Shown in pieces: positions 303 through 46,896 of a stretch of 64,000 nucleotides of DNA. Position 1 is the first letter of the stretch. Each line of letters begins with the position of its first letter. The DNA is from Pyrobaculum ferrireducens (lineage in GTDB: Archaea > Thermoproteota > Thermoprotei > Thermoproteales > Thermoproteaceae): positions 1,588,391 to 1,652,390 of the forward strand of contig NC_016645.1 in NCBI RefSeq assembly GCF_000234805.1, in the 5' to 3' direction. A program made the translations under genes and the position numbers. The notes below the pieces were generated by a model. That model was not told the origin of the DNA and did not search any database. It was given only the letters and a program-made list of their open reading frames with translations.

Positions 303-1121
303 GTGGGGTCCGTGATTTCGAAGAAGTTGTGGGAGGAGTTTGAAAATGTTAGGTGGGTTCTGGATGAGTTGAGGAGAGCCGCAGATGACTTCTCTTTCCT
401 CTCTAGGTTTAGGACGGGGCTGGAGTTTGTGGAGTGGTTTAAGTCGTTTATATCTCCCATTCTTCAGGTTAACTACAACACGGGGGCGTATTGGATAAGG
501 ACTACCGACTTGAGGGGCGTAGTGTTGTGGACTAGGCAGGGGGCTTGGAACGAGTGGGCCGCTAACTCAGTGCTGTCGAGGGCCTTGACGGACTACCGAG
601 ACTACATCGAGCCCGAGTTTATAGACGTCTTGGCCCACCAGGTGGCTGACGAGGCGCGGCATTTCTACATAAGAGTTAAAATTCTGGAGCTGGCTGGGGA
701 GTCGCTGGCCGGCTTCCAGCCCCTCCCCCAGTGGATGCAGCTATTCGAGTTCCCGCTGAAGTGCGCCGCCGAGAGGCTGGAGAGGCCGTACTTCCAGGTT
801 AAGTTCTCGGGGGCTTTCCAGACAGTGGAGCTGACCGCCACGGTTCAGCACAGGGGGGTTGTGGAGAACGCGCATCTCAACAAGGCGCTGTGGGAGGGCC
901 CCGCCAGGAGGGTCGCCGAGGCGCTGGTGAGGTTCTCCCGGGAGATTGAAGACGACGAGTCTTTTCACTGGTCAATTGCAGAGAGGATCTGGGCGCGGTT
1001 CCTCTCGACGCCTGAGCTGATGTCTGAAGCTCTTAAATGCGCGGTGCCCGCTCTTGAGCTTTCCACAGTGGCGAAGATAGCCCGCATAGAGGCGGCGGAG
1101 AAGGCCCGTGCCGCTGGTTGA
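303..1121 (+). CDS. Ferritin-like diiron-carboxylate protein
   Basis: A soluble, mostly helical protein of about 272 residues. Counting from the GTG at 303, two ExxH motifs are visible, E117-A-R-H120 and E219-S-F-H222. Each is preceded about 30 residues earlier by a candidate ligand, E84 and E188, giving the four-helix E...ExxH/E...ExxH plan of diiron enzymes. GTG at 312 is an alternative start. The next gene is a Rieske ferredoxin overlapping by 14 bases, a pairing also found in bacterial multicomponent diiron oxygenases, so it may receive electrons from that ferredoxin. Whether it is an oxygenase, oxidase or reductase cannot be read from the sequence. Confidence 0.7.
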   Translation: MGSVISKKLWEEFENVRWVLDELRRAADDFSFLSRFRTGLEFVEWFKSFISPILQVNYNTGAYWIRTTDLRGVVLWTRQGAWNEWAANSVLSRALTDYRDYIEPEFIDVLAHQVADEARHFYIRVKILELAGESLAGFQPLPQWMQLFEFPLKCAAERLERPYFQVKFSGAFQTVELTATVQHRGVVENAHLNKALWEGPARRVAEALVRFSREIEDDESFHWSIAERIWARFLSTPELMSEALKCAVPALELSTVAKIARIEAAEKARAAG

Positions 1122-1440
1122 GGCCGCGCGTGTTGAGGAGCTTGTGGAGGGGAGGCCTGTGGTTAGGCACGTATCTGTAGGCGGCAGGCTGGTGTCTATC
1201 ATGCTTGTGAAGCTCGGGGGGCGGGTGTACGCCGCCGAGCCGCTGTGTCCCCACGCCAGGTGGCCGCTCGACGTCTTCGGCACCTTTACAGATAGGGGAG
1301 GCGCAAAGGTTGTATGCAGGATGCACTGGGGGGTGTGGGAGCTGGATACCGGGAGGGGAAGGTTCGCCTCGAAGGAGGCGCCTCGTCTAAAGATCTACGA
1401 GGCAGAGGTTAGGGAGGGCAGGGTTTATCTACGTCTGTGA
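1108..1440 (+). CDS. Rieske [2Fe-2S] ferredoxin
   Basis: A 110-residue soluble Rieske protein. The cluster-binding motif is C47-P-H49 followed, 20 residues after the histidine, by C70-R-M-H73, the CxH...CxxH pattern of two cysteine and two histidine ligands. There is no signal peptide or membrane segment, so it is of the cytoplasmic ferredoxin type and not the bc-complex type. It starts at a GTG inside the end of the diiron gene and its stop overlaps the following ATG, so the three genes are almost certainly cotranscribed. Its likely role is electron delivery to the neighbouring diiron protein. Confidence 0.85.
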   Translation: MPLVEAARVEELVEGRPVVRHVSVGGRLVSIMLVKLGGRVYAAEPLCPHARWPLDVFGTFTDRGGAKVVCRMHWGVWELDTGRGRFASKEAPRLKIYEAEVREGRVYLRL

Positions 1441-3084
1441 TGTATCCCGAGAGGCAGTCCCGGATCCCCGGCGGAGGTTTTTGGTACCGCGACGTGGTTC
1501 ACTTCGGCGAGGAGCCTCTCTACCCGCTAGACGCCTACTTCACGGTTTCTATGATGGACCTGGCCCAGTCCTACTATTACGGCCGCTTCTTCTCCATGCC
1601 GACGTCGTCTGGAAGGGACACTGCGCTGGTGGAGGGGAGGCCGTTTAGAACCTCCTACCCCCCGCGCCCTCTCGACATATCCGAGTTTGAGAGGAGGGCT
1701 AGGCGCTACCTAGAACACTGGGACGAGATATATGAGGAGTGGAAGAGGGACGTGCTGGCGGTTGTGGAGGAGATGCGGTCGCTTGACCTCTCTCTGCCGG
1801 AGGGTGTCGACGGCGGGGGGCGGCCGCCCGCGCCTTTCAGAGTGGTGGAGGGGTGGTTTAGGCTGTACCTCCTGTGGCTGAGGCTCTGGTTTAGACACTA
1901 CGAGCTTCTAATGCTTGGCTACATGGTGTATCAGCTGTTTTATAAATTTGTAAAGACTTTCTTCCCCGATGCCCCAGACCACCACATAGCGGCCATGCTG
2001 GCCGCAGAGGAGCTGGACACCTTAAGGCCTGAGAGGGAGCTGGAGGACCTGGCTAAGCTGGCCAGGGAGCTGGGGATCGCGGACAGGATCGCCTCCTTCG
2101 CCACCGCCGGGGAGATGGAGGAGGCCTTTTCCAAGTCCGGCGATCCGAGGGAGCGTCTCTGGCTGGAGAGGTGGAACGCCGTGAAGTATCCGTGGTTCTA
2201 CGTATCCACGGGGACGGGCTTTCTGCACTGGGAGAGGCGTTGGGTAGACGACCTCGACATACCGTTTAGCTACCTCAAAAGCCTGTTGAAGGAGTCTGGA
2301 GGCGCGCCGCGGCGCGTAGATGGGTTGAAGCTGGCTGAGGGGTACAGCCAGTATCTTCCTGAGGAGCTGAGGGGAGCGTTCCGCATGTATCTAGAGGCGG
2401 CTAGGAGGGCGTATAGGTTTATTGAGGAGCACAGCTTCTACGTGGAGCACCTGGGCTTCACCGTCGGCTACATGAAGATTAGGGAGTTCGGAAGCCTCCT
2501 GGCAAGACTCGGCGTGCTGGACAGCGGCGACGACATTTGGCTACTGACGTGGGGGGAGGTCTTCGAGGCTCTTCTAGACGGCTTAACAGGCTGGTGCAAC
2601 CTCCAGGGCCCCGCGGCAAGCGGCAGATTTAGGCAGAGGGTGGCGGAGAGGAGGCGGCTCATGGAGGATATGCGGCGGACAAGGCCGCCGGACTACATAG
2701 GCGAGGCACCAGAAAAGGTGTCCGACCCCAACCTGGCGATGCTCCACGGGGTGGCGCGGCGGAGCGACGGCGTTTTGAGGGGGGTGCCCGCATCCCCCGG
2801 ACGGGCCAGGGGACCGGTGGTCGTGGTGAGGTCGCCCGCCGATCTTGAAAAGGTTAGGGACGGCGCCGTCTTGGTTGGCCTCGACGTTATCCCCCACGTG
2901 GCTCCCGGCGCTGAGGCGGTCCGCGGCTATTGTCACCGAAAGCGGCGGCTCCCTCTCCCACGCGGCTATATTGGCAAGAGAGGCCGGGAAGCCGGCGGTG
3001 GTGGGGATCCGCGGCGCCACCGAGGTTTTGAGAGACGGGGTTGAGGTGGAGGTGGACGAATACGAGGGGGTGGTTAGGCTATGA
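1440..3084 (+). pseudogene. PEP-utilising mobile-domain protein, frameshifted near the C-terminus
   Basis: A paralogue of the intact 618-residue protein at 5577-7433, sharing the helical N-terminal region (for example HWD.IYE.WK, WN.VKYPWFY, RW.DDL.IPF) and the C-terminal swivelling phosphohistidine domain. The frame opened at 1437/1440 leaves homology after VLV and ends at 3044. Skipping one G of the GG at 2877-2878 restores an alignment without gaps (TLSPTW against NTSPAW) and brings in the catalytic SHAAILARE histidine motif. The restored frame ends at 3084 in an ATGA overlap with the next gene, which supports the reading. It may be a true mutation or a sequencing error. Read as it stands, the product lacks the phosphate-carrying histidine. 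Confidence 0.75.
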
Positions 3085-3845
3085 TAGACGTCCTTGCCCG
3101 CGCAGTGAGGGAGGGCGGCAGAGTTGCGAGAGAGATGTTTCTACGCAACGAGGGGCTTGAGGCGATATTAGACAGGGGAGTCGACGTGACGAGGCGCGCC
3201 GACTTGGCGGTGCAGGAGGCGGTTCTGGAGGTGCTGAGGTCCGAGCTACCCTCCGCCTCTGTGTTGACTGAGGAGAGCGGGTGGGTTAGGTGGGGCTCTG
3301 GGGGCCCCGTGGTGGTGGTAGACCCCCTGGACGGCTCCGGCAACTACGTCCTGGGGATTCCCCACTTCGCCGTCATGGCCGCCGCGGGGGGCCCCGGCTC
3401 TGTGGAGGTGGGGGATATGACCCACGCCGCGGTTTATCTACCCATGCTAGATCTTCTCTTCGCCGCGGACCCCGCGCGTGGGGTTGAGGTAAATGGATCT
3501 AGGTGGCGCCGCGTGGGGCGGGAGGATGTGGTCTTCGTGGAGCTGGGGAGATCATTCACCCTCGAGGCCGTGGACGCGCCACGGAGGCTTGGCTACAAGG
3601 TGAGGAGCTCCGGTTGCGCTGGGTGTTCCATACTAGCCGTGGCGCTGGGGAGGGCGGTGGGCTTTATAGATGTGAGGGGGCGGCTGGGTCCGTGGGACGT
3701 GGCGGCGCCGTTGGTATTCGGCAGGTCTAACCCCAGCTTCTCCTACTGGCTGGCCGGCGGGGCTCTGGGGGAGCGGGGGAGGGTTAAGATAATCGCGGGG
3801 CTAGACGGCTTTGTGGAGAGGGTGAGACAGCTTATCCCTTTATAA
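3081..3845 (+). CDS. Inositol-monophosphatase-family phosphatase
   Basis: A 254-residue Mg-dependent phosphatase of the IMPase/FBPase superfamily. The metal-binding motifs are all present: TEESG near residue 65, DPLDGSGN near 83-90, and GPWDVAAPL near 205. Archaeal members act on inositol-1-phosphate and often also on fructose-1,6-bisphosphate; which applies here is not clear. It overlaps the restored frame of the preceding PEP-mobile gene by ATGA, so it is the last gene of the diiron-Rieske operon, and runs into the convergent HAD gene with a 14-base overlap. A phosphatase in a phosphotransfer operon may recycle or remove an activating phosphate. Confidence 0.85.
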   Translation: MIDVLARAVREGGRVAREMFLRNEGLEAILDRGVDVTRRADLAVQEAVLEVLRSELPSASVLTEESGWVRWGSGGPVVVVDPLDGSGNYVLGIPHFAVMAAAGGPGSVEVGDMTHAAVYLPMLDLLFAADPARGVEVNGSRWRRVGREDVVFVELGRSFTLEAVDAPRRLGYKVRSSGCAGCSILAVALGRAVGFIDVRGRLGPWDVAAPLVFGRSNPSFSYWLAGGALGERGRVKIIAGLDGFVERVRQLIPL

Positions 3846-4623
3846 ATTTGGCCAACTCGTCGACGTGGTTTAGCACTAGATCCACAAGCCCCCTCGGCCA
3901 GCTCTGTTTATCCCCTCTCTTCTCGAAGTTTATAAGCACAGTCTTCATGCCGAGGGACCGCGCGGGCATCATGTCTGCCTCCACGTCGTCGCCCACCATG
4001 ACGGCGTCCTGCGGCATGACTCCGAAGTGGCTCAGCACCTCGATGAAGTGTATTGGGCTGGGCTTGCCCACTACCACCGCCTCTCTCCTCGTCTGGTATT
4101 CAATAGCCGCCACGATGGCGCCGGGAGACATAATGGGCCCCTCCCCGGGCATGTAGTACCACCTCACCTTATTCACCGCAAGGAAGTACGCTCCCGCGTG
4201 CACTGCCCTAACGGCCTTCGTCACCTTGTCGAAGGTTATGCCTCTGTCGTGCCCGACCGCCACCGCCTCGGCGTCACGCCAGTCCTCCACCACCACGTGG
4301 CCGTGGGCCTCTATCTCCTCAGCCAGGCCCCGCTCCCCCAGCACCAGCACATGTGCCTTGCCGAAGATGCGCCTCAGGTGGATGGCGGCGACCCGCGCCG
4401 CGGGCCACACCTCGTCGTAGTCCACGAGGTACCCCAGAGCCCTCATCCGCTCCATATACTCCTTGGTGCTCCAGTTAGAGCCGCTGGCTATGAGGGCGAT
4501 TTTCCTCCCCATTCTTTTCAGCGCCTCCAATACGGCGTGGCCTCCCAGCACCTCAGGATCGTCGAGGATTCTCGTTATAAAAACCCCGTGTACGTCGAAG
4601 GCGAAGAGAGAGGCGTCTATCAC
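3832..4623 (-). CDS. NagD-like HAD-superfamily protein with altered motif I
   Basis: A 263-residue HAD subclass IIA protein (NagD/p-nitrophenylphosphatase type). Motif I is FAFDVHGVF, keeping the nucleophile Asp but with His in place of the second Asp of the usual DxD. Motif II is ALIASGSN, the Lys of motif III is in VVVGKPSP, and motif IV is VMVGDDVEAD. The second Asp is normally the general acid/base, so activity may be changed or lost. It is the second gene of a two-gene operon; its ATG overlaps the stop of the related upstream gene by four bases. Confidence 0.8.
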   Translation of the reverse strand: MIDASLFAFDVHGVFITRILDDPEVLGGHAVLEALKRMGRKIALIASGSNWSTKEYMERMRALGYLVDYDEVWPAARVAAIHLRRIFGKAHVLVLGERGLAEEIEAHGHVVVEDWRDAEAVAVGHDRGITFDKVTKAVRAVHAGAYFLAVNKVRWYYMPGEGPIMSPGAIVAAIEYQTRREAVVVGKPSPIHFIEVLSHFGVMPQDAVMVGDDVEADMMPARSLGMKTVLINFEKRGDKQSWPRGLVDLVLNHVDELAKFIKG

Positions 4624-5387
4624 GGCTCCAGCTCGTCTATGTTAGACAAGACCTGGTCTGGCTGGAAGCCGGACTCCCTCAGCCTTTCGGGGGTCGTGGT
4701 GCCCGTGAGGACGAGAATTGTGTGGAAGCCCATCTTCTGGGCCAGCACCAGGTCCTCCAGGTCATCGCTAATTATGGCGCTCTCCTCGGGGTAGGCCCTG
4801 GCGCGTATCAAGGCATAGGTGTACATTATGCGAGAGGGCTTCCCAGTGTTTATCGGCTTTACACCAGTGGCGTAGGAAAGAGCCATGGCGATGGGGCCTA
4901 TGGAGATCGTCGGCTTCTCCTCTGGTATAAACCTAGACATGCCAGCCGCCACCAGCTTGGCCCCCGACATGATCAACTGCATCGCCTTGTTAAGCTTCTC
5001 GAAAGTCAGCTGTCTGTCAATCCCCACCACCACTATATCAGCGCCGTCCTCCACCACCTGGTGGCCGTACTTAGCCAGCTCCTGCTTAAAGCTGTCAGAC
5101 CCAATTACGTAGAGTTTCGAAGGCCCAAACCTCTTCGCTATGTACTCCCCTGTCACCTGCGCCGACGTTATCACCTGCTCCATACCCACAGGCAGGCCGA
5201 CAGCCGCGAGGTCCTTATACACCTCTTCGGTTAACCTAGGCGCGTTGGACAGGATGAAGTAGCGCGCCCCCCTCTGCCTCATCGCCTCCATAGCCTTTAC
5301 GCCGCCTATTAGCTGGCTCTTCAAGGTCTGCGGGTTTCTCTTTAGTAAAGTACCTTGGACATCTATAAAATATACGCTTGGCTTCAT
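4620..5387 (-). CDS. NagD-like HAD-superfamily protein with altered motif I (paralogue)
   Basis: A 255-residue HAD subclass IIA protein related to the product of 3832-4623. Motif I reads YFIDVQGTL, so the second Asp of DxD is replaced by Gln; motif II is YFILSNAP, and motif IV is AIISDDLED. It leads a two-gene minus-strand operon whose TATA-like box (around 5412-5421) is enclosed by a 7-base dyad. The substrate is unknown. The shared loss of the acid/base residue in both tandem copies is unusual and suggests a conserved departure from ordinary phosphatase chemistry. Confidence 0.8.
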   Translation of the reverse strand: MKPSVYFIDVQGTLLKRNPQTLKSQLIGGVKAMEAMRQRGARYFILSNAPRLTEEVYKDLAAVGLPVGMEQVITSAQVTGEYIAKRFGPSKLYVIGSDSFKQELAKYGHQVVEDGADIVVVGIDRQLTFEKLNKAMQLIMSGAKLVAAGMSRFIPEEKPTISIGPIAMALSYATGVKPINTGKPSRIMYTYALIRARAYPEESAIISDDLEDLVLAQKMGFHTILVLTGTTTPERLRESGFQPDQVLSNIDELEP

Positions 5388-5401
5388 GAGGCTGGTAAAC
5401 T

Positions 5402-5443
5402 AGTCAGCTATACATAAATTTCTAAAATATATATCCGCTGACT
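5402..5443. promoter_or_regulatory. Dyad AGTCAGC-N28-GCTGACT around a promoter
   Basis: Perfect 7-base inverted arms lie at 5402-5408 and 5437-5443. The AT-rich stretch between them contains the likely TATA element of the minus-strand HAD operon, whose start is at 5387. This geometry would suit a dimeric repressor or activator. The plus-strand gene starting at 5577 has its own TATA-like box (CTTAAAAAT, about 5548-5556). Confidence 0.4.
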
Positions 5444-5576
5444 CCCAAAATATTTTTGTAATCTCCAAACTATATTGAACATTCAAAAATTATTTAAATC
5501 AGATATGATATAATTACATACCTTTGATAATTCTAGTTAATAAACGCTTAAAAATGATTTTAATATAGAAGTTGCC

Positions 5577-7433
5577 ATGAGCGAGAAGAGATTTCCCTAT
5601 CCCGATGAAGTAAAACTCCCCGAAGGTATTGACATAGAGACATACAAGCGTATGTATGCCTACTACCGGCTGCCGGCTACTGTTCTGTTTGGAAAAGACG
5701 CGCCCAAGGAGCTAGTCGAGTGGGAGAGGAAGATGTTTTGGTACCAGGATTCGCTTCACCACTACGACGTGATGTACCCACTAGACGACATACACCCCGC
5801 GACGTGGGAGATAGCGCTCTCCACCTATAACTCCAGGATTTTCGTCGTGCCGCCCGCCAACGGCATACCTCACAGGCTGGTCAACGGCTACCTCTTCATA
5901 TCCTTCGTGCCGGTGCTCGACGAAAAGGAGATACAGAAGCGTCTCGAGCACTTCCAGAAGAGGGCGGGCTACTACTACCAGAACTGGAACGACATTTACG
6001 AGAAGAACTGGAAGCCGGAGGCCGAGAAGATAGTCAAGGAGATGGAGTCGCTGGAGTTTAGAGATCTCCCAGAGTTTGAGGACGAGTCGGTGGTGTTTGG
6101 GAGAAAGGGGTACTCGCCCTCCGCCTACCACCTCGTTGACAACTGGCTGAGGCTGGTGATGCTTCACCAAAGGCTGTGGTGGAAACACTTCGAGATGCTG
6201 AACCTCGGCTACGCCGCCTACCTGCTCTTCTACCAATTCATGAAGCAGAAGTTCCCAGACATCCCCGACCAGCACATCGCGTTGATGGTGGCGGGCATCG
6301 ACGTTATCTTGTTTAAGCCAGATATGGAGCTTAGGCGCCTGGCTAAGCTAGCGGTGGAGCTGGGCGTGGCTGATAGAATTCTGTCCTTCGCCACGGCGGA
6401 GCAGATGGAGGCCGAGTTATCCAGAAGTAAAAACCCCAACGAGCAGAAGTGGTTTAATGAGTGGAACTCTGTGAAGTACCCATGGTTCTACTACACCACC
6501 GGCATAGGCTTCTACCACCACGAGCCTAGGTGGATCGACGACCTCAACATACCCTTCAACTTCTTAAAAGACTACATTAGTAAGGTCAAGAGGGGAGAGT
6601 CTCTTGAAACAGCTACCGAGCGTTTGAGAAAGCAGAGGGACGAAATCGCCGCTAGGTACAGAGAGTTGCTGAGCGAGGAGGATAGGAAGGTCTTCGACCA
6701 GTATCTACAGATTGCCAAAACGGTGTTTCCCTACGTAGAGGAGCACAACTTCTACGTGGAGCACTGGGGCCACACGGTGTTTTACAACAAGATCAAGGAG
6801 GTGGGCAGAATACTGGCTAAACACGGCTTCATCGAAAAGGCGGAGGATATCTTCTACATGAACTGGTGGGAGATCTACCTGGCTCTTCTAGACCTCGTGG
6901 CGAGCTGGGCAGTGGTGATGCCTCCAGTGGGTAAGTACTACTGGCCAAAGGAGATAGCTAGGAGAAAGGAAATACTGGCTAAGCTGAAGGAGTACAAGCC
7001 GCCTCCTGCCCTTGGGAGGCCTCCGGAGGTTGTGACAGAGCCCTTCACGGTGATGCTGTGGGGTGTGACTAGGGAGAGGATCGAGGACTGGCTGGGCACC
7101 GCGGCGGCTGGCAAGGTGATAAAGGGCTTCCCCGCCTCTCCCGGCGTCGTGGAGGGGAGGGCCGTGGTTGTTAAGTCTGTGGAGGAGCTGGGCAAGGTGA
7201 AGGAGGGGGACATATTGGTGTGTCCCAACACGTCGCCTGCGTGGGGGCCGGTTTTCGCAAAGGTGAAGGCCGTGGTGTCTGACATAGGCGGGTTGATGGC
7301 GCACGCCGCGATTGTCGCGAGGGAGTACGGCGTGCCCGCCGTGGTGGGGACCGGCAACGCGTCGCGGATAATTAAAGACGGGCAGAAGATTAGGGTAGAC
7401 GGCTTCAAAGGCGTGGTGGAGATACTGGAATGA
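5577..7433 (+). CDS. PEP-synthase-like catalytic subunit (phenylphosphate synthase alpha-like)
   Basis: A 618-residue protein. Residues 1 to about 500 are a helical region shared with the gene at 1440; the C-terminus is the swivelling PEP-utiliser domain with the phosphohistidine motif GGLMAHAAIVARE (H576). It overlaps by ATGA the next gene, which encodes the ATP-grasp half. A split enzyme with a roughly 70-kDa His-domain subunit and a roughly 40-kDa ATP-binding subunit is the layout of phenylphosphate synthase of Thauera aromatica, which activates phenol by phosphorylation. The assignment to that family is inference; another acceptor is possible. A TATA box lies about 25 bases before the ATG. 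Confidence 0.75.
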   Translation: MSEKRFPYPDEVKLPEGIDIETYKRMYAYYRLPATVLFGKDAPKELVEWERKMFWYQDSLHHYDVMYPLDDIHPATWEIALSTYNSRIFVVPPANGIPHRLVNGYLFISFVPVLDEKEIQKRLEHFQKRAGYYYQNWNDIYEKNWKPEAEKIVKEMESLEFRDLPEFEDESVVFGRKGYSPSAYHLVDNWLRLVMLHQRLWWKHFEMLNLGYAAYLLFYQFMKQKFPDIPDQHIALMVAGIDVILFKPDMELRRLAKLAVELGVADRILSFATAEQMEAELSRSKNPNEQKWFNEWNSVKYPWFYYTTGIGFYHHEPRWIDDLNIPFNFLKDYISKVKRGESLETATERLRKQRDEIAARYRELLSEEDRKVFDQYLQIAKTVFPYVEEHNFYVEHWGHTVFYNKIKEVGRILAKHGFIEKAEDIFYMNWWEIYLALLDLVASWAVVMPPVGKYYWPKEIARRKEILAKLKEYKPPPALGRPPEVVTEPFTVMLWGVTRERIEDWLGTAAAGKVIKGFPASPGVVEGRAVVVKSVEELGKVKEGDILVCPNTSPAWGPVFAKVKAVVSDIGGLMAHAAIVAREYGVPAVVGTGNASRIIKDGQKIRVDGFKGVVEILE

Positions 7434-8434
7434 TTATTGTACCCATCTCCTCGCTGAAGAAATCCGACATTTTACTCGCCGGGGGGAAGGGCGCTTCTCT
7501 AGGTGAGCTTGTCCAGGCCGGCGCCAGGGTGCCGCCTGGCTACGTAGTCACCAGCATAGCCTACAAGAACTTCCTAGAGTACAACGGAATTGACAAGCTC
7601 GTGGCGAGGCTGGAGAGGCGAGACGGCGACCCCTACGCCCTCGCCGCTAGGATCAGGTCTGCGATTTTGGAGGGCGAGATGCCGGGCGACTTGTCCCGCG
7701 AGCTTGATAAAGTCAGCAATGAATTTATGAGAGACTTCCTAGCCGTTAGGTCAAGCGCCACCTACGAAGACTCGCCTGAGTTCAGCTTCGCAGGAATTCA
7801 CGAGACGTATCTCGGCGTGAGGGGGGCCGACGTGGAGAGCTACGTGAGGAGGGTTTGGGCTAGCAACTTCGAGGATAGGGCCGTGGCGTATAAGCTTGAC
7901 AACAAAATCCCGCCCTCTAAGGTGCTTATGGCTGTGGTGGTGCAGAGGCTCGTGAACCCCAAGGCGGCGGGGGTCGCCTTCACCCTCGACCCCAGAAATG
8001 GCGACAGGTCGGTGGTGGTTGTGGAGTCCAGCTGGGGCCTGGGGGAGTCTGTGGTGGCTGGGGAGGTGAATCCAGATAGGTACGTGGTGAGTAAGATAAC
8101 GGAGGAGGTTTTGAAGAGGGAGATCTCCAACGGGAAAAACACCATGTACGTCTTGGAGGGGGGGAAGGTGGTTCATAAAGAGGTCCCGCCTGAGCTGGCG
8201 GCGGCCTCCTCGCTTGAGGATGGGGAGGTTGTGGAGGTGGCTAGGCAGGCGGTTATGCTTGAGAAGTACTTTGGACACCCGGTGGATGTGGAGTGGGCTA
8301 TTGAGAGGGATGTCTATATTCTCCAGAGCCGCCCCGAGACTGTGTGGAGCAGGAGGAAGACAAGCGGCGAGTGGCACAGCACGGGCGACTTGTTGAAAGA
8401 CATTGCGTATAATCTACTTTCATTTAAATTGTAA
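7430..8434 (+). CDS. PEP/pyruvate-dikinase-type ATP-grasp subunit (phenylphosphate synthase beta-like)
   Basis: A 334-residue stand-alone N-terminal domain of PEP synthase/pyruvate phosphate dikinase. Visible motifs are GGKGASLGE near residue 18, FLAVRSSATYED with the downstream SFAG near 102-120, the metal-site segment PVDVEWA near 283, and LQSRPET near 295. It has no swivelling His domain and no PEP/pyruvate-binding domain; the His domain is supplied by the preceding gene. ATP would phosphorylate the histidine of the partner, which passes the phosphate to an acceptor. The two genes overlap by ATGA and must be cotranscribed. Confidence 0.85.
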   Translation: MIIVPISSLKKSDILLAGGKGASLGELVQAGARVPPGYVVTSIAYKNFLEYNGIDKLVARLERRDGDPYALAARIRSAILEGEMPGDLSRELDKVSNEFMRDFLAVRSSATYEDSPEFSFAGIHETYLGVRGADVESYVRRVWASNFEDRAVAYKLDNKIPPSKVLMAVVVQRLVNPKAAGVAFTLDPRNGDRSVVVVESSWGLGESVVAGEVNPDRYVVSKITEEVLKREISNGKNTMYVLEGGKVVHKEVPPELAAASSLEDGEVVEVARQAVMLEKYFGHPVDVEWAIERDVYILQSRPETVWSRRKTSGEWHSTGDLLKDIAYNLLSFKL

Positions 8435-8488
8435 GCCTTCTCAAATATATAACATGTTAATTTTTAAATTCTCCCATTGGCAGTTCTT

Positions 8489-9964
8489 ATGATAAAGATT
8501 TCAAGTAGCTACGGGTTGCTGAAGCCCCTCGTCGAGGGCAAGTTTGTAGACGTGGACCACGACCGGGTTTTGCCCACGTACGACCCCGGCTTGGGGAGGC
8601 AGATTGGGGAGGTGCCTGTCATGAAAAACGTGGACGAGGCGGTGCAGTCAGCGGCTAGGGCTTTTGAGAAGTGGTCTAGGCTCCCGGTTTACGAAAGACT
8701 TCAATACTTGGTGAAGTTAAAGATTGTCTTCGAGCAAAGGCTTGAGGAGATGGCCCACCTCATTGCACAGAACGTGGGTAAGACTAAGCAGGAGGCTATG
8801 GGAGAGTTGCGGAGGGCTGTGGAGTCTATCGACATGGCCCTCGCCGCGCCGCATCTAATGGCCGAGGTGAGGAAGGTTATGAACATCGCCCAGGCGGAGC
8901 CGGAGATCGACATGGAGACTGTGAAGGAGCCGCTGGGCGTCTTCGCCGTCATCACGCCATTCAACTTCCCTGTGATGATTCCCATGTGGTTCATACCGCT
9001 GGCTGTGACGCTGGGCGACACTGTGGTCCTGAAGCCCAGCGAGCAGGACCCGGTGCCGGCGCTGTACATGGCTTCGCTGTTTGTAGAGGCGGGCTACCCG
9101 CCGGGGGTGCTCAACGTGGTGCTCGGCGACGGGTCCACGGCTGAGACCTTGATAAAGCATAGAGACGTCGTGGGGGTGGCCTTCGTGGGGTCCACCAGGG
9201 TTGGCTCGCAGGTGTACGCCCTCGCCGCGGCCCACGGCAAGAGGGCGCTGGTGGGCGCCGGGGCTAAGAACCCAGTTGTGGTTATGCCTGACGCCGATAT
9301 GAAAAACGCCGTTGAGAACATAGCCACGGGCTTCTTCGTGATGGCTGGCCAGCGCTGCCTCGCGCCGGGTAACCTAATCCTCGTGGGCGAGGCTTATGAC
9401 AAGTTTAAAAACGCGATTGTGGAGAGGGTGAAGAAGATTAGGGTTGGGTACCAGCTTCTAGACACCACAGACATGGGGCCTGTCATATCGGCCGCCTCTA
9501 AGAAGAGGATTTCTGACATGATTACAAGAGCCGCCGAGGCTGGCGCCGAGGTTCTGGTAGACGGTAGGTCTTACAGCCCGCCGAGGGAGTACGCAGAGGG
9601 CTTCTACCTGGGGCCCACGGTGCTGGACAAGGTGGCCATCGACATGGAAATCGCCCAGGAGGAGGTGTTCGGCCCGGTGTTGCCTATAATTAGAGCTGAG
9701 AGTTTTGAAGAGGCTGTGGAGATCGCAAACAAAACCCGCTACGGCAACGCCGCCTCTATCTTCACATCAAGCGGGAGGTACGCCCGGGAGTTCGCGCGGA
9801 GGGTCAACGCGGGGAATGTAGGCATCAACATGTCAATCGCCCAACCCACGCCTCACTTCCCCTTCGGCGGCAGGAAGCAGTCTTTCTTCGGCGTGTTGCA
9901 CGCACAGGTAGACGCAGTGGACTTCTTCACCGACCGCAAGGTAATTATGCAGAGATGGTGGTAG
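8489..9964 (+). CDS. mmsA: Methylmalonate-semialdehyde dehydrogenase-type aldehyde dehydrogenase
   Basis: About 491 residues of the ALDH superfamily. Family marks are TPFNFPVMIPMWFIPLAV, KPSEQDP, VGAGAKNP and the catalytic-cysteine motif GQRCLA. The C-terminal SFFGVLHA...FFTDRKV is typical of MmsA, the CoA-acylating methylmalonate/malonate-semialdehyde dehydrogenase. The general-base Glu of ordinary ALDHs is absent at the GAGAKNP position, as in MmsA. ATG 8489 is preferred over the upstream TTG at 8477 because a TATA box (TTTTTAAATT, 8461-8470) lies about 25 bases before it. The product would be an acyl-CoA formed with NAD reduction. Confidence 0.85.
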   Translation: MIKISSSYGLLKPLVEGKFVDVDHDRVLPTYDPGLGRQIGEVPVMKNVDEAVQSAARAFEKWSRLPVYERLQYLVKLKIVFEQRLEEMAHLIAQNVGKTKQEAMGELRRAVESIDMALAAPHLMAEVRKVMNIAQAEPEIDMETVKEPLGVFAVITPFNFPVMIPMWFIPLAVTLGDTVVLKPSEQDPVPALYMASLFVEAGYPPGVLNVVLGDGSTAETLIKHRDVVGVAFVGSTRVGSQVYALAAAHGKRALVGAGAKNPVVVMPDADMKNAVENIATGFFVMAGQRCLAPGNLILVGEAYDKFKNAIVERVKKIRVGYQLLDTTDMGPVISAASKKRISDMITRAAEAGAEVLVDGRSYSPPREYAEGFYLGPTVLDKVAIDMEIAQEEVFGPVLPIIRAESFEEAVEIANKTRYGNAASIFTSSGRYAREFARRVNAGNVGINMSIAQPTPHFPFGGRKQSFFGVLHAQVDAVDFFTDRKVIMQRWW

Positions 9965-39308: not shown

Positions 39309-39480
39309 CCCGAGCGGCTGGGCGTTAAACAATTTGCACAAAGCTTGGAAAACATAGTGAAGTCTTTTACCCAGCTATAGTGCTGACCTCTCTGAGGATA
39401 ATATATTCTCTTATTTTGTCTACAATAGAGTTTATGAATATTTATGTAGCATATTTAAAAAGTTGTTTGTTGTGTTTCAT

Positions 39481-40530
39481 ATGGTGTTTGCAAAAAACCC
39501 GATAGATCGCCTCCGTGAACGCGGTTTTGATGTCGGCGACGTGGGGGATGCCCTGCGTCTTGCTATTATAGCTGAGCTTGACGCCATCAGCCTGTATCTA
39601 CAGCTCGCTAGATATGCAGAAGACGAGAGGGTGCGCAGAGTTTTTCAAGACGTGGCAAACGAGGAGAGGACGCACTTCGGCGAATTCCTCGCCCTCCTCA
39701 AGGAGTATGACCCCCAGCTAGCCGGGGAGCTGGAGGCGGGGGCGAAGGAGGTGCGGGAGCTGGCTGGCGTGGGGGCTGGCGAGGGTAGAGATCCGCCTAG
39801 CAACGGCGGATGGATCAGCCAGCTGGCTAAACAGGTGGCCGACGCCGCCGCCGCGGCGAGGCGGTTTAGGAAAGTGGTCGCTACCTACAAGGTGGGACGC
39901 GGCGCCGATGCTGTGGCCTTTGAAGTGCTGACGAGGGAGGGCAAAGCCGAGAGGAGGATCACGCCATTGAGGGAGCTGAAAATTAGGTTCACCGTGTCGC
40001 AACAACAAGTCGACCTCGCGCTGTCCAGGGGGGCACCTGTGGAATCTGTCGAGGCTGATAAGGCCGCCGTCAAGCTGGCGTATGAAGAAGACGCCGCGGT
40101 GCTCGGCGATCTTCTTAAAAGCGGAGATGTTGTAGAGATTTCCAGCTGGGACAGGCCGGGGTCTGCTGTGCAGGAGGTGGCTAAGGCCGTGGCTGAGTTG
40201 TACAGGAGATACGTCCCCGAGCCCTATGTCCTGTTCGTAAGCCCTGGGAGGTTCGCAAAGCTGGTAGCTGTAGAGGAGAAGACGGGGGTTATGGAGCTCA
40301 CACGGGTAAAGACCTTGGTGAGGGACGTGGTGGCGTTGCCACAGCTCGGCGACAACGATGCTCTGCTCATTTCTATCCACCCCTCCGTGGCCGACATAGC
40401 CGTGGGCGTTGACGCCGAGGTCATATACCTAGGCCCGGAGGAGGGGGGACACGGCTTTCTACTACGCGAGACATTCGCCGTGAGGGTGAAGAACCCCGCC
40501 GGCGTTTTGGCGCTACGGGTAGGTGGGTAG
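39481..40530 (+). CDS. Encapsulin with fused ferritin-like cargo domain
   Basis: A 349-residue fusion. Residues about 20-92 are a ferritin-like helical pair with E32 and the ExxH motif E62-R-T-H65. A Gly/Pro-rich linker (about 96-110) leads to an HK97-fold encapsulin shell domain (about 111-349) ending FLLRETFAVRVKNPAGVLALRV. The same order is known from the virus-like particle protein of Pyrococcus furiosus. The product should assemble into a nanocompartment with iron-oxidising domains inside. ATG 39481 is preferred to TTG 39463, because CATATTTAAAAAG lies 25 bases upstream. It stands alone. Confidence 0.85.
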   Translation: MVFAKNPIDRLRERGFDVGDVGDALRLAIIAELDAISLYLQLARYAEDERVRRVFQDVANEERTHFGEFLALLKEYDPQLAGELEAGAKEVRELAGVGAGEGRDPPSNGGWISQLAKQVADAAAAARRFRKVVATYKVGRGADAVAFEVLTREGKAERRITPLRELKIRFTVSQQQVDLALSRGAPVESVEADKAAVKLAYEEDAAVLGDLLKSGDVVEISSWDRPGSAVQEVAKAVAELYRRYVPEPYVLFVSPGRFAKLVAVEEKTGVMELTRVKTLVRDVVALPQLGDNDALLISIHPSVADIAVGVDAEVIYLGPEEGGHGFLLRETFAVRVKNPAGVLALRVGG

Positions 40531-43701: not shown

Positions 43702-44191
43702 GCCCCCATCAACAAACAGTTTTAAAAATTGAGGCGCCCAGCACCCCGTGGCCAAGGAGGCGAAGCAGGCCATCAGGGAGAGGATATGGAGGCTAATGGA
43801 GGAGAGAGGCGTCGCCGCCTTCCCCCGCCCCGTCTACGGCAGAATCCCCAACTTCAAAGGCGCGGAAAGGGCCTGCCAGAACCTAGCCCACCTAGACATA
43901 TTCGCCAAGGCCGCCGTGGTTAAGATAAACCCCGACGCCCCCCAGAGGCCCTGCCGCGAGGCGGCGATGCACGCCGGCAAGAAGGTGGTGATGCCCACAC
44001 CCCGCATCCGCGAGGGCCTCCTCCTCCTAGACCCAGCCCAGATCCCCAAAGCCGCGTACAGAGAGGCATCCACCATCGCCGGCGCCTTTAAATGGGGCAG
44101 GCCCGTCAAGCCCTGGGACCTCCCACCGGTGGACCTCGTGGTGATAGGCTCAGTAGCCGTAAACCCCAGAGACGGGAGGAGGCTCGGAACC

Positions 44192-45989
44192 TTTGCATAT
44201 AATCTCGCCGGACCCAGAAGTGGACCAATAGCCTAAGGCCTCCACTTTACTCCAAGCGTACAGGTTCCCAATTACATGACTCTGACAAAGCGCTCTGTTA
44301 GTAAGGATTTTGGTTTGTATTTCTTCGCCTAAAGATCTAAGTAGGTAATAATCGCCGATGGAAAGATTTCCGTCTTCTAAAACGACTATTCATAAATTTA
44401 AAAATATTACATTGTATATGGGCAATTTAGGTATAGATGGCCTATGGCATAAGGGCGCGATCAATTGTGCTGAAGAGTGGAGAAGCTACCTTAGTGAATC
44501 CTGCGATGATCTCATTACAAAGCTAAGGCAAGCCCTAATGCAGGTTCCTAGAGTTATCAGCCGGGGAAAAAGAATCTTGTTTGATTATGGCGATGTAAAG
44601 ATATCTACAGATGGAAAGGTCACTATACTAAAAGTAAAAGGTCAGAATGAGTTAGCAACAAAGCTTAAGAAATTAAAAGGTACTGCAAATATCTCCTCGG
44701 ATTTCAAATATTCATACCTGCTTGGATGGCTTGCTTCAGATGCCTATATTGAGGATATTTATGTCAAAGTCGGCACTACGCAATCTTGGCAATTATCAAA
44801 ATTAACTAAATTATTCAATCTAGTAAATATTAGAATAAAAGGCTTTAGCCTCACTAAAAAGGGACTGAAACCAATTGTAGAGATATACTGGCGCCTTGAC
44901 ACAAGCTGGTGGAGTGCCACAGTACGGGAAGCGGTATCAGCTCTAAATTCAAATCCACTAATACAAAGGGCTATTAGTGCTATAAACAGCAGGATAGATG
45001 TGAACAACTTTCTCTCTGATTGGAATAGAAGAGCTAGAAGATATGTTTCAGCCTCACTACTTAACAAAAGCGAAAGAGATTTCGGCGCCTTCATGTTGGG
45101 ATTAATAGAAGGCGACGGCCACGTAAATGAAAAATACAGTTACGTCTCTATTACCATTGGCGATGAAAAATTAGCAATAATACTAGTAGCGCTTATGTGG
45201 AAATTCGGGTTCACCCCAAGAATATATAGACGTAGAAGATACTACTTGCTTAATATCTATAAACGACAACTTCGCAAACTCGTGACAATCATACCCCCAG
45301 AATTGCTTACAGATTCACCTAAAGCTGAAAAATTAGTAAAAATCGGAAGCTTTAAATGGAGCTTCTCTGTGAGAAAAACCAGCACTTCAATAAACGTGAT
45401 TACATCGCCTAAAAACCAATTCCAAACTTATCTAACTATTGAAAAGCTAAAAGAAATAGGCCTAACAGAAAAAATACACTTTACATTTGCAGTGCCATCC
45501 CCCCACAAGAGCGGACGTGTTACTATAAAACACGAAGGATTAAGATACCTAGCATATCTAGCATACCGAAAAAATAACAAAAAAGCACAGAACTTATTAA
45601 TATATTTAAAAGAACAAGCACATAAAACTTCTGCTTACCACGCCATAAACAAAATAATTGAAGAGGGACAGCGGTATTCATCAAGAGACCTACCCGAGGA
45701 CATTACAGCCGAAGCGCTGATAGATGGGAATAAGTTGCGCATCAATATAAAGCCTCATAACCTCACCATCACGTTCAGAATAGAGAGAAAAAACACTATC
45801 GTTGGAGAGGCGCCAGCCAGAAAGGCAGTGGAAGAGAGGAAACACATCTTAGAAAAGCTACTAGGTAGAGACGTACCAATTAAGCAACATTCCTTTAAGC
45901 TAAGCGGCGGTGATTTCCGGAGGCTACTTGAATACAAACAACTCTTCGACACAATGTATAAGTGGTACATAAACACCCCTTTTTTCCAC
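44192..45989 (+). mobile_element. AT-rich intervening element with LAGLIDADG-like ORF (limits approximate)
   Basis: A block of about 1.8 kb inside the cyclo-ligase-family gene differs sharply in base composition from its GC-rich surroundings and carries one long open frame in the same direction as the host gene. Edges are placed by where host homology stops and resumes, within about 6 bases. No terminal inverted repeats or clear target duplication are seen, and I could not draw a convincing bulge-helix-bulge splice structure by eye. It is not an intein because host frame and insert frame are separated by stop codons. Confidence 0.6.
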
Positions 45990-45995
45990 ACATGA
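44358..45995 (+). CDS. LAGLIDADG-like homing endonuclease/PaREP2b-type protein
   Basis: A 545-residue basic protein. Two LAGLIDADG-like helices are visible, LLGWLASDAYIE near residue 122 and MLGLIEGDGHVN near 251, each with the acidic residue that binds metal. The C-terminal 180 residues (LRYLAYLAYRKNNKKAQNLL, HILEKLLGRDVPI) recall the PaREP2b-type family of Pyrobaculum; that second link is from memory and less sure. Codon use is AT-rich, unlike neighbours. It would promote homing of the element into empty copies of the host gene. Confidence 0.65.
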   Translation: MERFPSSKTTIHKFKNITLYMGNLGIDGLWHKGAINCAEEWRSYLSESCDDLITKLRQALMQVPRVISRGKRILFDYGDVKISTDGKVTILKVKGQNELATKLKKLKGTANISSDFKYSYLLGWLASDAYIEDIYVKVGTTQSWQLSKLTKLFNLVNIRIKGFSLTKKGLKPIVEIYWRLDTSWWSATVREAVSALNSNPLIQRAISAINSRIDVNNFLSDWNRRARRYVSASLLNKSERDFGAFMLGLIEGDGHVNEKYSYVSITIGDEKLAIILVALMWKFGFTPRIYRRRRYYLLNIYKRQLRKLVTIIPPELLTDSPKAEKLVKIGSFKWSFSVRKTSTSINVITSPKNQFQTYLTIEKLKEIGLTEKIHFTFAVPSPHKSGRVTIKHEGLRYLAYLAYRKNNKKAQNLLIYLKEQAHKTSAYHAINKIIEEGQRYSSRDLPEDITAEALIDGNKLRINIKPHNLTITFRIERKNTIVGEAPARKAVEERKHILEKLLGRDVPIKQHSFKLSGGDFRRLLEYKQLFDTMYKWYINTPFFHT

Positions 45996-46377
45996 ACACG
46001 GCTACGCCGAGCTCGAGTGGGGCATCCTCTCAGTCCTGGGGAAGGTAGGCGAGGACACGCCGGTGGCCACCACGGTACACGACGTGCAACTCGTTGACGA
46101 CGAAATCCCCCACGAGTCCTTCGACCTTCCGGTAGACGTCGTGGCTACCCCAACCCGCGTTATACACACCAAGAGAGTAGACAAGAAGCCCCACGGAATC
46201 CTCTGGCAGTACGTCACAGACAAGATGCTCACAGAAATCCCACTGCTCGCCGAGCTAAAAGAAAAACTCGCAACAAGCCGCACATCCTGAGGCCGCCTCT
46301 ACGCACGCCACAGCGCCAGACATCACGCCGCGCCCGCAGAGCCACACAAAAATATATTTAGCAACTCAGACAGAGAC

Positions 46378-46839
46378 GTGGCCGTCACCATATCTCCCCC
46401 CGTGGCCGAGGTGCTGAAAAAAGCGGCAGGAGACAAAGACCTGGAGGAGTTTCTACTCACACTAGTGGCAGAGCGGCTCGACCCACCTGAGCGCATCGAG
46501 GCTTACCTCAAGCTTCATGAGAAGTTTTTGAGGGAGGCTGAGGAGCTGTATCAAAAGGGCGACTTGCTTCATGCTGGGGAGAAGTACTGGGGAGCCGTCG
46601 CCGCCCTCCTAAACGCAATAGCGGAGAAGCGGGGCTGGGAACACTACAGCCACCGGGACTACGCAGTCGCCATAAACCGGCTATACAGAGAGACAAGGAA
46701 TAGGGAGTTGGTAGTGGGCTTCAGCCTGGCGGAGAGGCTCCACGCAAACTACTACCACAACTTCATGCAAAAAGAAGAATTTGAGCTACACAGAGAAGCC
46801 GTGTTGAGGCTTGTGGAGAAGCTGAAGAAATTCTTATAA
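46378..46839 (+). CDS. PaREP1-family HEPN-like protein
   Basis: A 153-residue helical protein with the PaREP1 pattern: EAYLKLHEKFLREAEELYQKGDLLHAGEKYWGAVAALLNAIAEKRGW near the middle, and AERLHANYYHNFM near the end. It is intact, unlike the broken relative at 36006. The first 35 residues look like a short antitoxin-like or dimerisation segment (PPVAEVLKKAAGDKDLEEFLLTLVAERLD). A TATA box (AAAATATATTTAG, 46349-46361) supports GTG 46378. Its function is unknown. Confidence 0.8.
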   Translation: MAVTISPPVAEVLKKAAGDKDLEEFLLTLVAERLDPPERIEAYLKLHEKFLREAEELYQKGDLLHAGEKYWGAVAALLNAIAEKRGWEHYSHRDYAVAINRLYRETRNRELVVGFSLAERLHANYYHNFMQKEEFELHREAVLRLVEKLKKFL

Positions 46840-46896
46840 AACGCCGCCGAGATCGACGGCGCGGTTAATTTTAAATATGGATACAAGAGATACCAC

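Follow-up and report, generated by a model that had tools for sequence, protein, structure and literature searches.

Our results show that the 5-formyltetrahydrofolate (5-FTHF) cyclo-ligase-family gene (PF01812; Pfam) of a Pyrobaculum genome is split by an AT-rich insert, and that the insert encodes what is, judged by its sequence and predicted fold, a two-motif LAGLIDADG protein. We give a slightly better than even chance to the reading of the insert as a selfish homing-endonuclease gene of the LAGLIDADG type that was captured at a break, probably disables its host gene and encodes a compact relative of the PaREP2b proteins. After a limited literature search, we know of no other archaeal homing-endonuclease gene that interrupts a protein gene without being part of an intron or intein. 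The locus is perhaps a rare archaeal case of this kind.

The window, that is, the whole stretch of DNA that we analysed, is 64,000 nucleotides long and corresponds to positions 1588391-1652390 of a single-contig genome of 2.47 Mb. The features of the locus, in window coordinates, are the following.

43748..44187, + strand: 5' host piece (exon 1), residues 1-147, with a GTG start (PF01812 at 3.2e-19, ORF 43748-44236, orthologue alignment)
44188..45996, + strand: AT-rich insert, about 1.81 kb long, in place of about 7 host bases (the KS codons) (empty-site comparison, same edges in the sister species G003)
44358..45995, + strand: 545-aa LAGLIDADG / PaREP2b-like ORF (ORF list, Pfam, predicted model, Foldseek, hhalign)
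44715..44756, + strand: first LAGLIDADG-type motif, YLLGWLASDAYIED, residues 120-133, with the conserved Asp128 (11-protein alignment, predicted helix 114-128 followed by two strands)
45087..45293, + strand: second LAGLIDADG module (LAGLIDADG_3, residues 244-312), with the invariant Gly252-Asp253-Gly254 (Pfam 5.6e-9, alignment, model)
45360..45980, + strand: C-terminal region, residues ~335-541, with PaREP2b-type homology (blast and hhalign)
45997..46290, + strand: 3' host piece (exon 2), from HGYAELEWG to the stop codon, without an in-frame start before the conserved part

Elsewhere in the window, 39463-40530 encodes a fusion of a ferritin-like/rubrerythrin domain with a shell protein of the encapsulin type (Linocin_M18 4.3e-29, Rubrerythrin 3.3e-8).

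The preliminary description of this DNA had proposed a cyclo-ligase-family gene split by an AT-rich element of about 1.8 kb, and this holds. Both halves of the gene match PF01812 (3.2e-19 and, for the C-terminal half, 9.5e-4), and the GC content is 38.8% in the insert compared with 65% and 58% in the exons. A second intact copy, the existence of which had been raised earlier, was sought throughout the 2.47-Mb genome; the search returned only these two pieces and no intact copy. The gene is present in 35 of the 36 good-quality genomes of relatives that were searched, and all 25 aligned orthologues are intact.

The insertion point lies inside the active-site loop. Insert-free relatives read RRLG-K-S-HGYAE(I/L)EWG, for example CTCGG-CAAATCC-CACGGC in nucleotides. 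In the window CTCGG ends at 44187, where the insert begins, and CACGGC picks up at 45997; the seven bases between the two are absent. Because a few A residues beside the edges could be ancestral, we put the host loss at 4-7 bases. The edges had previously been placed at 44192 and 45989, with host homology stopping at RRLG and resuming at EHGYAELEWG. Homology does stop at RRLG, but the E of EHGY does not belong to the host gene. It resumes at HGYAELEWG, and the empty-site comparison moves the edges to about 44188 and 45996. The Lys of the loop LGKSHGY is invariant in all 25 orthologues. Across these orthologues 70 columns are invariant, and the carriers of the insert differ at two of them (L74M and the lost Lys), a number that falls inside the range of other members (0-3).

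The same insert is found at the same codon and with the same edges in a sister species (G003, locus L045). There two single-nucleotide changes in homopolymer runs interrupt the endonuclease ORF: an A is lost at the position equivalent to 45328 (A5 to A4), and a C is gained at the one equivalent to 45975 (C4 to C5). Both changes are either real or assembly errors. A 55-bp patch (44209-44264) holds 16 of the 41 base differences between the two inserts, some of them through small indels; it contains no conserved hairpin, since the stem that the window allele could form is disrupted in G003.

A member of another genus within the order also has a broken cyclo-ligase gene (L071, G041:C1:193500-203500, positions 840-8929). 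This gene lacks its middle, and about the first 25 codons are separated by 7.8 kb from the part after EWG. A PaREP2b-like ORF of 451 aa with two motifs (6835-8190) lies directly upstream of the 3' part. This break is about 8 codons away from the insertion site in the window, in a genome that is incomplete.

The 545-residue LAGLIDADG-like frame proposed earlier was borne out. The ORF matches LAGLIDADG_3 at 5.6e-9 (36.6 bits; Pfam cut-off 22.5). It is no chance frame, because the second species has the same insert at the same position and dN/dS between the two carriers is 0.25 (P = 0.0014 vs neutrality). An AlphaFold model predicts a double module, alpha-beta-beta-alpha-beta-beta-alpha, at residues 114-198 and 239-311. 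The mean pLDDT of this model is 65; values lie at about 70-87 for the second module and for the C-terminal part, and the first 110 residues are unreliable. When the model was compared with the PDB, Foldseek returned 36 matches at E <= 0.001, including PI-PfuI, I-Tsp061I, I-DmoI and WhiA. Every one of the 36 is a LAGLIDADG enzyme, an intein that contains a LAGLIDADG domain, a maturase of this family, or WhiA, a protein that shares the fold. Fully conserved in an 11-member alignment are Asp128, Gly252-Asp253-Gly254 and Gly268, the first four of which are motif positions; Asp128 and Asp253 thus join Pfam, the model and Foldseek in pointing to the LAGLIDADG motif and fold. A comparison by hhalign with the endonucleases of three 16S introns gave uninformative probabilities of 3-10%; hence the LAGLIDADG assignment rests on Pfam and fold. 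Relatives of the ORF were absent from the genome_contigs, phage and plasmid collections. The only match among the viral_contigs, of 34 residues (L057), was taken as chance; it lies in no open frame of at least 60 aa.

The C-terminal part of the ORF had been likened to PaREP2b-type proteins. The kinship extends well past this part: a profile built from eight PaREP2b-type proteins proved homologous to residues 117-541 (421 aligned columns in hhalign, 99.5%, E 3.5e-23), and in the alignment the ORF and these proteins have both motif aspartates in common. Multi-copy proteins in the same genome and in relatives match both halves of the ORF, and several of them are PaRep2b by Pfam. The ORF therefore belongs to the PaREP2b family by homology to its proteins. 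Since its direct match to PaRep2b (PF07775) is weak and under the cut-off (0.012, 14.6 bits), we regard it as a relative and not as a core member. One protein (L066) passes both PaRep2b (3.8e-20) and LAGLIDADG_3 (4.9e-7, above the cut-off), and the five best PDB matches of its confident model (pLDDT 83) are LAGLIDADG proteins, at modest E values of 0.016-0.046. The best P. aerophilum-type members (G006) retain an aspartate at each of the two motif positions (ALPTDAV and VLYDGTV). Six genomes have 35, 28, 18, 17, 13 and 13 PaREP2b matches, and the majority of genomes in the order lack any. Given the homology over residues 117-541, the PaREP2b family appears to be LAGLIDADG-derived, and its sequences suggest descent from two-motif LAGLIDADG proteins to which a C-terminal region was added. 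A second compact relative, a two-motif ORF of 444 aa, occurs in the same genome as the insert (L072, G000:C1:1461000-1470500, 4828-6162); the listed ORFs that flank it are not obviously one split gene.

Hitherto, PaREP2b has been described only as a putative transposon that is numerous in Pyrobaculum (PMC3558965). On this basis one could take the insert for a common transposon-like or decaying copy of PaREP2b that lacks any homing function and happened to land in this gene. This is highly improbable in our view. First, the ends of the insert have no other copy in the genome. Second, the insert is filled by its ORF, which evolves under purifying selection and has retained the motif residues.

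The preliminary description had proposed a mobile intron, to be recognised by a bulge-helix-bulge (BHB) motif at its junctions. We scanned for an outer helix, a 4-bp central helix with two 3-nt bulges, and an inner helix. As positive controls we used the three introns in the 16S rRNA gene of this genome, with edges taken from comparison with an intron-free relative (L092, G000:C1:126900-131200; introns at 693-1410, 1775-2559 and 2869-3469). Each of these introns carries a LAGLIDADG_3 protein and has clear BHB junctions, all of which ranked first in the scan (scores 32, 30 and 34). At the edges of the insert the best strict score was 16, below the median of 20 for random box pairs. With bulges relaxed to 2-4 nt, the best score was 24 and out of frame, against a background with a median of 20 and a 90% point of 28. 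Mobile introns normally leave their exons intact. We listed all in-frame, stop-free joins, of which the short ones place GH, GEH, GKH, GTH, GNEH, GTEH or GHEH before GYAELEW; no in-frame join restores GKSH, so the Lys-Ser codons are not recovered. A BHB-spliced intron is thus unsupported, given the negative scan despite a control from the same genome and the lost codons. A group I or II intron was dismissed (Rfam returned neither type up to E = 5), as was an intein, the frame of the ORF being different from that of exon 1 and the three forward frames of the locus containing 17-59 stops. None of the structural tests that we applied supports an intron.

One could nevertheless argue for a genuine pre-mRNA intron that houses a homing-endonuclease gene and is excised by the splicing endonuclease through a strongly relaxed motif, or by other means, so that NE, TE, HE or a single K takes the place of KS. 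Crenarchaeal splicing endonucleases do tolerate relaxed motifs, and introns are known in cbf5 (PMC2738675). The host gene is single-copy and kept in nearly all relatives, exon 1 is under purifying selection in the two carriers, in-frame joins are available, and LAGLIDADG genes sit in rRNA introns of the same genome. Still, with a working positive control neither a strict nor an in-frame relaxed BHB was found at the edges, and the Lys-Ser codons are lost from exons that a mobile intron would normally spare. We consider such an intron unlikely, though worth taking seriously. Somewhat less likely again is its fullest version, in which the element would be the first pre-mRNA intron from archaea to encode its own homing endonuclease, would be excised non-canonically, leave an altered active-site loop and be carried by the PaREP2b family. 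If this were true, PaREP2b would be a family of mobile-intron proteins.

If it is not spliced, the frame of exon 1 enters the insert and reaches a stop at 44234-44236, about 15 codons in, and for this reason the host enzyme is most likely lost. The earlier claim that the unspliced gene would be dead is therefore likely to be right, but two facts temper it: exon 1 is under purifying selection, and split genes can work (PMC2988022). Between the two carriers exon 1 differs by eight synonymous and three non-synonymous changes (dN/dS 0.11, P = 0.001), compared with a dN/dS of 0.04-0.07 for three neighbouring genes. For a dead gene such a value is unexpected, provided that the insert is older than the separation of the two carriers. 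In that case exon 1 was selected with the insert present, which argues for splicing or for a gene in pieces. Both host pieces are also free of frameshifts and stops in both species, which speaks against a dead gene. On the other side stands the dS of the insert ORF, which at 0.034 is half that of the neighbouring genes (0.067; p = 0.03). Hence, the insert may have been transferred from one species to the other at a later time, and most of the selection on exon 1 may be older than the insert. Such a transfer would fit the halved dS and counts for a selfish gene. We set the dN/dS of exon 2 aside because its 3' part sits in a diverged tract. From 46100 to 46840 the divergence from G003 rises from about 2% to 5-20% and then drops; this tract, probably a recombined one, covers the end of the host gene and the PaREP1 gene that follows (46378-46839, dS 0.47).

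Alternatively, the gene could function in pieces, with two separately translated polypeptides assembling into the enzyme. Homing-endonuclease genes can indeed split host genes whose pieces still function, as documented for phage insertions such as Aeh1 nrdA/mobE (PMC2988022). Here the 5' piece has its own translation signals, including a stop, and is under selection, and the 3' piece of G003 has an in-frame GTG before HGY, created by one extra C. The 3' piece in the window, by contrast, has no in-frame start before HGYAELEWG (the first is a GTG at 46063), and the break falls within the active-site loop, where the invariant Lys is lost. Taken together, this makes a working gene in pieces improbable.

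Hence we return to the selfish homing-endonuclease gene. From the sequence and the predicted structure we infer that the LAGLIDADG protein is an active homing endonuclease, which would cut the conserved RRLG-KS-HGY sequence. Its gene would have been captured at the break, with the loss of the central 4-7 nt. LAGLIDADG enzymes leave a 4-nt 3' overhang, and the putative loss of this overhang would be compatible with the missing bases. Against capture at a break, the missing bases could instead reflect later divergence of the edges. The insertion would destroy the target site, and the element would then have been inherited by, or have spread into, two sister species. We infer that the insert is not spliced out, in which case the enzyme is most likely gone. 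The insert protein can be seen as a missing link, as it keeps a LAGLIDADG score while most of its length can be aligned with PaREP2b. PaREP2b, a large Pyrobaculum repeat family, thereby gains a testable biochemical identity, namely that of a homing endonuclease or a descendant of one.

How does the insert compare with known systems? It shares a two-motif fold, an ORF that fills the insert and a conserved site with the endonucleases of archaeal 16S/23S rRNA introns (I-DmoI, I-Tsp061I and the 16S introns described here, which come from the same genus). These introns have clear BHB junctions, whereas the insert lies in a protein gene, has no BHB that we could find, has cost its host codons and encodes a PaREP2b-type C-terminal region. 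The cbf5 pre-mRNA introns also interrupt a crenarchaeal protein gene, but they are only 16-44 bp long, have a BHB-like structure, lack an ORF and have not been found in Pyrobaculum cbf5 (PMC2738675), in contrast to an ORF-bearing insert of about 1.81 kb. At such a length they are too short to house an endonuclease gene. Closer in arrangement are the phage genes mobE in nrdA of Aeh1 and mobA in gene 60 of T4, each of which interrupts a protein gene in a functionally critical region and belongs to neither an intron nor an intein (PMC2988022). The phage enzymes are of the HNH family and the nrdA pieces are functional, whereas the insert is archaeal, encodes a LAGLIDADG protein and is followed in the window by a 3' piece without a start. 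With the PaREP2b repeat family (PF07775), finally, the insert ORF shares homology over residues 117-541 and the motif aspartates. PaREP2b-type proteins are longer (open frames of about 950-1350 aa), multi-copy and weakened in their motifs, whereas the insert ORF is compact and single-copy and passes the LAGLIDADG_3 cut-off.
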